Assembly: GCA_937896195.1 (NCBI GenBank)
Contig: CALBNC010000030.1
Coordinates: forward strand, 1-43,321
Reading direction: 5' to 3'
DNA from: an uncultured Gammaproteobacteria bacterium
GTDB lineage: Bacteria > Pseudomonadota > Gammaproteobacteria > PS1 > Pseudothioglobaceae
DNA: 43,321 nucleotides
Shown: piece after piece, positions 2,603-36,663 of the stretch
Position numbering within the stretch: position 1 is the stretch's first letter
How the letters are laid out: each line of letters opens with the position of its first letter
Program-made: the position numbers and the translations under genes
The notes under the pieces: generated by a model
The model's input: only the letters and a program-made list of their open reading frames with translations
The model's database searches: none
Told to the model about the DNA's origin: nothing

Positions 2603-2671
2603 AAAAACCTTTTTTTAAAATTTGGGTAATAATACACTCAGATGCTCTCAATATAAAGATAGATTTAATTT

Positions 2672-3445
2672 TTAAAGTCGAACCTCAATGCCGTTTGCTT
2701 GCATGGCTAGCTTTGCCTGCTTTACCGTGTATTCACCAAAGTGAAAAATACTGGCCGCTAAAACAGCATCGGCACCGCCCTTTAAAACTCCCTCAGAAAG
2801 ATGCTCTAAATTACCTACGCCACCTGAGGCGATAACAGGCACACTCACTGCATCTGATACTGCCTTGGTTAATTCAAGATCAAAGCCTGTCTTGACTCCG
2901 TCACAATCCATAGAAGTTAGCAGCACTTCACCCGCACCATGCTCGCCTTCTGTCATTTTTATCGCCCACTCTACTACGTCAATCCCTGTTGGCTTTCGAC
3001 CGCCATGTGTAAAAACCTCCCACTTATTGGGTGTGCTGGATACTTTTTTAGCATCAATAGCAATCACAATACATTGGGAGCCGAACTGCTTACTAAGTTC
3101 ATTAATTAAGTTTGGATCAAAAATAGCAGCCGAATTAACAGCCACTTTGTCAGCACCAGCATTCAACATAACGCGAACATCTTGCGCCTTACGAATGCCG
3201 CCGCCCACAGTAAGTGGAATAAAAACCTGCTCAGCGATTCTTTCTACCATGTGGATTGTAGTATCACGACCCTCATGCGAAGCTGTAATATCTAAAAAAG
3301 TAATTTCATCAGCACCTTGCTCATCATAGCCTTTGGCCACCTCGACAGGATCTCCAGCATCTTTAATGTCAATAAATTGAACGCCTTTAACCACACGGCC
3401 ATCGCGAACATCTAAACAAGGAATAATTCTTTTTGCTAAACTCAT
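2672..3445 (-). CDS. hisF: Imidazole glycerol phosphate synthase subunit HisF
   Basis: [24 protein letters not shown]…LTVGGGIR…VIASGGVG; start chosen at the internal Met of the supplied ORF. Confidence 0.97.
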
Positions 3446-3516
3446 AGGTTGAATTTTACATCTCAAAGTTTGTTATGTGGCCAATTATGACTCTATAGGT
3501 ATAATTCTCATTTAAT

Positions 3517-30383: not shown

Positions 30384-32792
<2,409 letters not shown>

Positions 32793-32929: not shown

Positions 32930-34015
32930 CTATTGAGTTGTTATCACACCTTTATTAATTTTAAAAATAGTGGGGTTTTCGTCTTTAATAAATGATAAAT
33001 CTTTACCGATATCTGTCATAAACGTTTGAACATTTAAATGATTTAAATAATGCAAAATAGTTTTAATTTTGGTTGTGTCTAATTCTGAAGATATATCGTC
33101 AATCAAGACGATAGGATAGATATTGTTTTTTACTAACATTGACACTTGTGTTAGCCAAAATATAATTGACAAAGTTTTTTGTTCACCTCTTGATAAGAAG
33201 CACTCTTCTTTTTCATTTAAAAAAAACGTAAGGCTGGCTTTATGGGGGCCGTAGTTTAAATATTTAGCTTTTAGTAAGAATGGTTTATTTTTTAATAAAT
33301 ACTGATAAACGCTATCACTATCGAATGCATTAACTTCTTTTGGCCAGCCTGATTTAAATTCATAGTTAAAAGAATCTATAGTATCAAACAAGCCAGATAA
33401 CTCTTGAATCAATTCACTTGAATTTGTATTCTTTAATTGCTCAATGTAATTAATTCTGGATTGATTAATATTAACAGAGAGTTTTGAAATTTCTAAAAAC
33501 CAGTAATCTAGCTCTTGTTGTTTTTGTTGAGATAACAATGTATTAATATTTTTTAAAGCTTTATTGTAGTTTTTAAAGTTTAATAAAAAGTTAGGTTCCA
33601 CGTGGAACACCCCCCAATCTAAATAAGATCGTTTGTTTTTTGGCGTTCCATTTACTATAAATCCTTTATCGGGCGTGATAATTTGAATAGGTAAAATTTT
33701 AGATAATTCACTACTATTTTTTAAACGTGACTGATCAATATTAATATTAGTTTTTTGCTTTGATTTTTCTAATTTAACACGATAGTTATCAACTTGGGCA
33801 TCCAGCTGAAACTTTTGCTGATCTAGTTCTATTAACTCTTTTAAAGACTTAGTTTTAAAAGATCGGTTATGGCCCAGATAGTAGATTGCTTCTATTAAAC
33901 TGGTTTTACCTTGAGCATTATCAGCAATAAATAGGTTTAACTGTTTACCTGGTTCAATGTATTGTTGATTAAGATTACGAAACTGGGTGATAGCCAGTTT
34001 ACGAATAATTGCCAC
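32930..34015 (-). CDS. recF: DNA replication and repair protein RecF
   Basis: ITQFRNLNQQYIEPGKQLNLFIADNAQGKTSLIEAIYYLGHNRSFKT; FLSRGEQKTLSIIFWL; IVLIDDISSELD. Confidence 0.97.
   Translation of the reverse strand: MAIIRKLAITQFRNLNQQYIEPGKQLNLFIADNAQGKTSLIEAIYYLGHNRSFKTKSLKELIELDQQKFQLDAQVDNYRVKLEKSKQKTNINIDQSRLKNSSELSKILPIQIITPDKGFIVNGTPKNKRSYLDWGVFHVEPNFLLNFKNYNKALKNINTLLSQQKQQELDYWFLEISKLSVNINQSRINYIEQLKNTNSSELIQELSGLFDTIDSFNYEFKSGWPKEVNAFDSDSVYQYLLKNKPFLLKAKYLNYGPHKASLTFFLNEKEECFLSRGEQKTLSIIFWLTQVSMLVKNNIYPIVLIDDISSELDTTKIKTILHYLNHLNVQTFMTDIGKDLSFIKDENPTIFKINKGVITTQ
33594..33609. promoter_or_regulatory. parS-like ParB-binding palindrome inside recF
   Basis: GGTTCCACGTGGAACA; reverse complement TGTTCCACGTGGAACC contains the perfect palindrome GTTCCACGTGGAAC, matching the known parS pattern. 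Confidence 0.8.
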
Positions 34016-34041: not shown

Positions 34042-35145
34042 TTAAATGCGCATTGGCATAACAACATATTGATAAGTTTCATCATCAGGACTGCTCAACA
34101 TACAAGACTGGTTCTCACCACCTGGAACAACCATGTTAATTTCGTTTGTTTGTAATTTTTCTAAAATAGAAATTAAATAATGAATATTAAAAGCTATTTC
34201 AATTTCTTTATCAAAGTTTTTAGTGCTAATTTGAGTTTTAGCTTGTCCTCTTTCTGAATGCGAAAAAATATTTAATTTTGAATTTTTAAATACTAATTTA
34301 ACACCTTTTGTACGCTCTTCAACAAAGATTGAAGCCTGTTGAAGAGCGTTTAAAAATTCTAAACGATCTATTACAATAGTATTCTCAAAGTCAGTTGGTA
34401 ATACTTGAGAGTAGTTAGGGAAATTGCCGTCAATAAGGCGACTAATAATCGTTGTATCGTTGCTAACTAAATAAAAATAATTATCTGACAAGTGAATATC
34501 GACCTCACTGTGCTCACTTTTACTTAGTATCTTGGTTAATTCTAAAACAGCTTTTCTTGGTAATATGACTGTTTTCTTGTTAGTCAAGGTGTTTAATTGC
34601 TTAATTTCACCAATAGATAAACGATGGCCATCAGTTGCAACTACAACTATCTTATCTTGATCGACTTCAAAATACAAACCGTTCAAATAAGCTCTAATAT
34701 CTTGATTTCCCATCGAGAAACTTGTGTTTTCAATAAGCTCTTTTAATTGCTGACAATTAACTTTGATAATATCTGTATTTTCTATTTCTGGTAGAAAAGG
34801 GAAGTCTTGATGATTAAAAGTATTTAACTCAAAAGAGTTTTTATTAGTTTTAATATAAATCTTAGATTCTTCAATAATAAATTCAATGATTGTTGTTTCA
34901 GGAAGTTTTCTAATAATATCAATTAGATCTTTTGCATAGATAGTAAAAGAAATTTCTTCTTGGGTTTGGATAGGGTGAGAAGCTCGGATCTCAATTTCCA
35001 TATCTGTTGTGGTTAGTGTCAACTGGTTATCTTTTAGTTGGATAAGCACATGAGAAAGAATGGGTAGAGTTTGTTTTTTTTCAACAACACCGATAACTGT
35101 TTGCAAAGGTTCTAGTAGTTCTTTAACAGTTAGTTGAGTATTCAT
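34042..35145 (-). CDS. dnaN: DNA polymerase III beta subunit (sliding clamp)
   Basis: LPILSHVLIQLKDNQLTLTTTDMEIEI…VVATDGHRLS…C-terminal YVVMPMRI; located between dnaA and recF. Confidence 0.98.
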   Translation of the reverse strand: MNTQLTVKELLEPLQTVIGVVEKKQTLPILSHVLIQLKDNQLTLTTTDMEIEIRASHPIQTQEEISFTIYAKDLIDIIRKLPETTIIEFIIEESKIYIKTNKNSFELNTFNHQDFPFLPEIENTDIIKVNCQQLKELIENTSFSMGNQDIRAYLNGLYFEVDQDKIVVVATDGHRLSIGEIKQLNTLTNKKTVILPRKAVLELTKILSKSEHSEVDIHLSDNYFYLVSNDTTIISRLIDGNFPNYSQVLPTDFENTIVIDRLEFLNALQQASIFVEERTKGVKLVFKNSKLNIFSHSERGQAKTQISTKNFDKEIEIAFNIHYLISILEKLQTNEINMVVPGGENQSCMLSSPDDETYQYVVMPMRI

Positions 35146-35358
35146 CTTGAAATCCTTTTAATTAAAAGTTATTGTTATTATTAGTGAGACTTTTTTGGTT
35201 AATAAGTGACATTTTTCTTTAAAAATTAATCATTTAAGTTGTTGATAGTTTGTTAGTATTTTATGTAAAAAATTGTGTATATGGTTATAAAGTTTGTATT
35301 ATATTAAAGTTATTATTGTTATCCACTGGTATTTACAAAATAACCTTTGTGGATATGT
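35146..35358. other. Candidate chromosomal replication origin (oriC) in the dnaA-dnaN intergenic region
   Basis: Very AT-rich gap with three 8/9 matches to TTWTNCACA: TGTGTATAT (35274-35282, minus), TTATCCACT (35319-35327, plus), TGTGGATAT (35348-35356, minus). Confidence 0.6.
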
Positions 35359-36663
35359 TTATAAGTTGGCTAATTTAAGTTTAATTAAGTCGTAATCATC
35401 TTTTATATCAGGGTTTTCAAACTTTTCTTCAATTTTCTTTATTGCGTGTATAACCGTTGTATGGTCTCTATTACCAAACTGTTTACCGATCTTGCTGAGT
35501 GCTAAAGAACTAAGCTCATGACTGATATAGATTGCCATTTGTCTTGCCAGTACTAAGTGTTGCTTGCGTGATTTTGAGCTTAGGTCTGATACCGTTAGCG
35601 CGTAATGTTTAGCAACTTCTTTTTGAATATCATTTATATCTATGTTTTTCATGATCGGTTTGATTAAGTCGCCTAAGGCAGTTTCTACAACTTCTTTGGA
35701 AATAAAGGACTGATTGATTTTAGAAAAATCTACAAAGGCTTTTAATTTCAACAAGGCACCCTCTAAATCTCTGACATTAGAGGTTATATGTCCTGCCATG
35801 TAGAGAGCTAAATCTTCTGTAAGATTAATGTTGATTTTTTCATTTTGTGATTTTTTTAATAAGATGGCAGCTCTCATCTCAAGCTCAGGCGGCGTCAAGT
35901 GTAGGTTTAGTCCTTGAGAGAATCTTGTTTTTAGGCGCTCTTCTAGTGATTTAATCTTTTTAGGTGACTGATCGCATGTGAATATAATTTGTTTCTTGCC
36001 ATTGAATAAAAAATTAAAAATATGAAAAAACTCTTCTTGAGATTTTTCCTTGCCCGCTATTAGATGTATATCATCAACTAGCAATAAATCTGCTGACTGG
36101 TAAAAGGCTTTGACGCTTTCAATGGAGTTGTGCCTAAGACTGGACGTGATGTTTCTAACAAAATCCATAAGAGGCACGTACATGACCTTCAAGTTTGGAT
36201 TCTTAGCTTTTGCCAAATGACCAGCAGCTTGCATAAGGTGGGTTTTACCTAGACCAGACCCCCCATAAATAATAAAAGGATTGTAGGGTGAGCCGTGAAT
36301 ATTTTCAGCAATTTGCTTGGTAGCAGCGTAAGCCATTTGGTTGGCGCCGCCTAGTACTAAGTTATCAAAAGTGTAGTCTTCGAATAAAGGGGTTGAGTGC
36401 TTCTTATAGTTTGATTTATCAGGGTTTGTATCTGGCGCTAGGCTTATAAAAATTTTTAGATTTTTGTTATGCTGCGCAACAGCATTTTTAATTTGAGTTT
36501 TTAAATTTTTACTAAGGTAGTTTTTAACTTGAGTGTTAGGTGCTAATAATGTTAATGTGTGTTGATTCTCTATCACCTTTAAAGGGTGGATCCAAACACT
36601 ATATTCAGCTAAAGGGACGGTGTCTTTAAGTGTGTCCAAACATTGGGCCCAGGTTTTTGACAT
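35359..36663 (-). CDS. dnaA: Chromosomal replication initiator protein DnaA
   Basis: NPFIIYGGSGLGKTHLMQAAGHL…LLVDDIHLIAGKEKSQEEFFHIFN…GNRDHTTVIHAIKKIEE. Confidence 0.99.
   Translation of the reverse strand: MSKTWAQCLDTLKDTVPLAEYSVWIHPLKVIENQHTLTLLAPNTQVKNYLSKNLKTQIKNAVAQHNKNLKIFISLAPDTNPDKSNYKKHSTPLFEDYTFDNLVLGGANQMAYAATKQIAENIHGSPYNPFIIYGGSGLGKTHLMQAAGHLAKAKNPNLKVMYVPLMDFVRNITSSLRHNSIESVKAFYQSADLLLVDDIHLIAGKEKSQEEFFHIFNFLFNGKKQIIFTCDQSPKKIKSLEERLKTRFSQGLNLHLTPPELEMRAAILLKKSQNEKININLTEDLALYMAGHITSNVRDLEGALLKLKAFVDFSKINQSFISKEVVETALGDLIKPIMKNIDINDIQKEVAKHYALTVSDLSSKSRKQHLVLARQMAIYISHELSSLALSKIGKQFGNRDHTTVIHAIKKIEEKFENPDIKDDYDLIKLKLANL

Follow-up and report, generated by a model that had tools for sequence, protein, structure and literature searches.

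A 14-bp palindrome within the coding sequence of recF is almost certainly the sole high-quality predicted parS of a small Thioglobus-like marine bacterium. We put at roughly 95% the probability that it serves this Candidatus Thioglobus-like organism as its chromosomal parS, with ParB binding predicted from sequence. The 43,321-nt stretch of DNA analysed here (the window) carries on its minus strand, at 33594-33609, the 16-bp sequence TGTTCCACGTGGAACC, and positions 33595-33608 within it form the perfect 14-bp palindrome GTTCCACGTGGAAC, exactly as the original prediction had described. The 16-mer fits the parS consensus and is identical to parS1 and parS4 of P. aeruginosa, both of which are bound by ParB in vivo as verified by ChIP (PMC5098823). 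Two features single out the 14-bp core: it is unique in the genome, and 122 of 154 recF genes have a site at these same codons. According to the proposed mechanism, ParB encoded elsewhere in the genome would load at the palindrome and spread across the oriC-proximal DNA, and ParA would then separate the newly copied origins; binding, spreading and segregation in the window's species are predictions.

The candidate site, its surroundings and the parAB pair

The host gene recF (32930-34015, minus strand, 361 aa, GTG start; TIGR00611, E=2e-82) leads, among named relatives, to Candidatus Thioglobus MAGs, with 75-85% RecF identity. It belongs to the gene order dnaA-dnaN-recF-gyrB, which is the same in relatives and is represented here by dnaA (35359-36663; TIGR00362), dnaN (34042-35145; TIGR00663) and the downstream neighbour gyrB (30384-32786, named from its place and length), all on the minus strand. 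The AT-rich 213-bp gap between dnaA and dnaN (35146-35358) is the nearest candidate oriC; it holds two DnaA boxes with one mismatch each, at 35319 and 35348, and the turning point of the cumulative GC skew falls in the 31.5-35 kb bins. The whole window contains 16 one-mismatch DnaA boxes versus 13 expected, and the oriC assignment is therefore that of a candidate. The palindrome lies about 1.5-1.7 kb from this putative origin, in agreement with the ~1.7 kb proposed earlier. It runs from the third base of RecF codon 136 to the first base of codon 141, read as G TTC CAC GTG GAA C, and the surrounding protein sequence is WGVFHVEP.

In the genome of 1,421,506 bases (127 contigs) there is one exact copy of GTTCCACGTGGAAC, the one in recF, so the sites are not randomly scattered, and the many randomly placed copies that would have spoken against the original prediction were not found. 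When two mismatches are allowed, the genome yields four places versus two for the reversed-pattern control, and hence only the exact copy stands out. The window itself, searched with up to three mismatches, gave no further match to the palindrome, at a laxity where shuffled sequences give 0.95 matches.

The genome also encodes the expected partners, against the other outcome named as fatal to the prediction, a lack of parABS genes. parA (L141:10043-10813) and parB (L141:9189-10037), the latter directly after the former, are located on a contig other than that of the window and oriC. ParB scores 184 bits against a profile cut-off of 58, aligns to solved ParB and Spo0J chains, and by sequence is of the parS-binding type, having R173, N178 and G201 when aligned to Caulobacter ParB. 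ParA matches related models only, each below its cut-off, and owes its name to the KGGVGKTT motif and to its place beside parB. The parAB operon is usually described near oriC (PMC3909081). In the single-contig genomes G002, G012, G014, G031 and G043 parB is far from recF, for example at 1,349,275 versus 747,944 in G002 (1.51 Mb) and at 738,331 versus 2,698 in G031 (1.47 Mb); the operon thus seems to have moved away while parS stayed put.

Conservation of the site and its codons across Gammaproteobacteria

We searched 95 genomes with the consensus GTTYCACGTGRAAC, using the reversed pattern as a control, and aligned the recF genes extracted from 154 genomes, 45 belonging to the window's family and 109 to other families. 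The consensus occurs 0-3 times per genome and the reversed control not once in any of the 95 genomes. Of the 154 recF genes, 122 have a central GTTYCACGTGRAAC site at matching codons and in the same reading frame (32/45 in the window's family and 90/109 in the others). A chance palindrome is therefore extremely improbable; a single genomic copy is also what chance could leave behind, so that uniqueness alone would not exclude it, but the shared position and frame and the empty control argue strongly against it. Most of the other families have a second site ~207 codons downstream of the central one, near the 3' end of recF: 80 of the 109 genes carry both sites, 10 the central one only, 7 the 3' one only and 12 neither. 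The 3' site is absent from all 45 genes of the window's family, and in the window the corresponding place (32951-32968, minus strand) encodes FKINKG with no site, where other families have FHVExG. This distribution suggests that the 3' site was lost in the lineage of the window's family. Two genomes of family f51, G109 and G219, have ParB and no parS in recF (WGCFFHYA and WGCFYQFP at the central position), and therefore any parS of theirs would have to be elsewhere.

Codon choice at each alignment column was compared with the background of the same genes; kinship is ignored in this comparison, and the ranking against other columns serves as its control. A first codon-usage statistic was dropped, as it included the column in its own background and favoured odd codons over uniformity. 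When genus g3 is left out, the window's family has Val139, Val136 and His138 at ranks 1, 2 and 5 of 262 codon columns, and Val139 is encoded by GTG in 33 of 33 cases (background 25%). In the other families the central Val139, Val136 and His138 rank 1, 3 and 4 of 127 columns, and at the 3' site Val353 and His352 rank 2 and 5 of 127. The site codons are thus the most restricted in recF or nearly so, and the freely evolving synonymous positions that would have refuted the prediction are not what is seen. Under the parS reading, selection at the DNA level would fix the synonymous bases in recF codons 136-141, together with residues such as V139 and E/K140.

DNA-level versus protein-level constraint, and other explanations

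The codon restriction bears on the alternative that RecF needs the motif VFHVEP for its function and that the palindrome simply results from encoding it, the DNA pattern having no role of its own. Some of the motif is indeed explained at the protein level, since W134, G135, F137 and mostly H138 are conserved even when a recF gene lacks the site. That V139 is present in all site-bearing genes is true by construction, and hence the informative part is the freedom of residue 139 where the site is missing: valine occurs there in just 6 of 32 genes, with 11 other residues found. Eight genomes of genus g3 that keep recF and lack both parA and parB (two of them single-contig) have all lost the site, with E, N, V, A, D, D, D and G at position 139; G205 of another family (1.0 Mb, single-contig, without parA and parB) has FHAEP and no site, and parB and the site are both present in G086, a member of the same genus as G205. 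Val139 is thereby replaced in 8 of 9 confidently ParAB-less genomes. The ParB-less G030 keeps the protein sequence VKP, but with codons drifted to GTT TTT CAT GTT AAG. At V136, H138 and V139 the choice among synonymous codons is extremely restricted, and no free synonymous variation is seen in ParB-bearing relatives. In E. coli, whose lineage is described in the literature as lacking par genes, RecF of MG1655 has WGCFHNEP centrally and FTVEKG at the 3' position. Because Val139 and its neighbours drift without ParB or with an alternative parS, the DNA site appears to impose these residues and so to dictate part of the RecF protein sequence, and we regard the by-product explanation as very unlikely. 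Of the proposed dual coding, what stands is that the same bases encode VFH-VEP; the drift of Val139 indicates that this motif is probably not a wholly independent requirement of the protein. Codon restriction and decay in ParAB-less genomes both point to selection on the DNA sequence.

The palindrome could instead belong to another regulator with a similar recognition sequence, such as a Noc-type occlusion protein or a transcription factor of the dnaA-dnaN-recF-gyrB operon, an explanation to which we likewise give very little weight. A regulatory side effect is conceivable, as excess ParB in P. aeruginosa reduces expression around parS1-4, this operon included, and the Noc model TIGR04285 matches the ParB described here at 218 bits. 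This match is nevertheless below the model's cut-off of 315 bits, and the protein has R173 and G201, which Jalal et al. (PMC7383237) describe as absolutely conserved in ParB, with Q and R in Noc; moreover, decay of the site accompanies the loss of parAB.

The ParAB-less contrast amounts to few independent losses, as the eight g3 species form one clade: an independent-pairs test on a first tree gave three pairs and was not significant, and G205 is one further loss. For the same reason a presence/absence table of ParB versus the site (Fisher p=0.00016) was rejected as proof, its losses being mostly of one clade. Two further g3 genomes, G038 and G058, keep parAB with an eroded recF site (GTG TTT CAT ATA AAR CCC), and no consensus parS was found anywhere in either genome, each having five one-mismatch places. 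These imperfect sites were not accepted as selected, since the three orthologous pairs among them are ~87% identical, as expected without selection. Many of the genomes are drafts, and single absences of ParB can therefore be assembly gaps (G022, G166); in G022, which has the central site, only a short piece of ParB was found, probably because of such a gap. G032 (93% complete) also has the central site, and neither parA nor parB was found in it.

Known systems, turnover and apparent relocation

The closest likeness is to P. aeruginosa, in which parS1 and parS2 are contained in recF near oriC (PMC5521831, PMC3909081) and the 16-mer shared with the window has been characterized (PMC5098823). 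P. aeruginosa differs in having four strong sites close to oriC, any single one of which suffices for segregation (PMC4368675) and two of which are in recF, whereas a single site is present here. The chromosomal parS of Bacillus, Caulobacter and Myxococcus similarly is a palindrome of the TGTTYCACGTGRAACA form that is bound by ParB near oriC; the present site differs from these in being single-copy, inside a repair gene and fixed in position across much of one class. A parS in recF was thus already known from one model species, and what is added here is the class-wide dual coding, the single site in one family and an apparent relocation in a subclade. A search of open-licence papers found no report of the recF parS as a class-wide dual-coded element, or of a centromere dictating residues of a repair protein, although the parS survey of Livny et al. 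2007 may say more on both.

On balance we favour a scenario in which the recF pair of parS sites is ancestral to much of Gammaproteobacteria and has set V139, E/K140 and the C-terminal FHVE for reasons unrelated to RecF function. Since the reduced Thioglobus family retains just one of these sites, its centromere would share the fate of recF. If so, loss of recF would remove parS and parAB would then decay, unless the site is kept in a remnant or has moved. The system offers a natural test of DNA-level versus protein-level selection, provides a small-genome case of ParABS with one site and apparent instances of that site relocating, and cautions that conservation of RecF V139 and E140 should not be taken as protein function.

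Two genomes of genus g2, G012 and G053, carry recF as a pseudogene (L110 about 2623-3485; L111 about 2695-3130), and recF and an intact parB are both missing from most of the other small single-contig genomes of this genus. The 13 of 14 site bases in the G012 pseudogene were set aside as evidence, as its overall identity of 84% predicts about as many. G021 keeps parAB and has lost recF, and its 595-bp dnaN-gyrB remnant contains TGTTTCACATGAAACC, with 13 of 14 core bases matching versus ~70% in the flanks in most comparisons (p~0.05, simple binomial). This modest difference is only suggestive of the site having been retained in the remnant.

Within the window's own genus, parS has apparently been relocated near the origin in a subclade. 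G010 has the recF site and a second consensus site ~4.5 kb upstream of recF, 184 bp past secG; the site past secG is the sole one in G011, and G005 has one-mismatch sites both there and in recF. The consensus or one-mismatch sites just downstream of secG in this subclade lie at L093:2290, L092:8346 and L090:15491. In the window, the corresponding place lacks a parS and is occupied by a tRNA-like sequence. The recF site has been lost in G006, where a one-mismatch match falls at the beginning of the histidine-kinase gene. One-mismatch sites are weaker evidence, because the controls reach three per genome; a near-consensus form, GTTTCACATGAAAC, is found near the origin in G005, G006 and G021.
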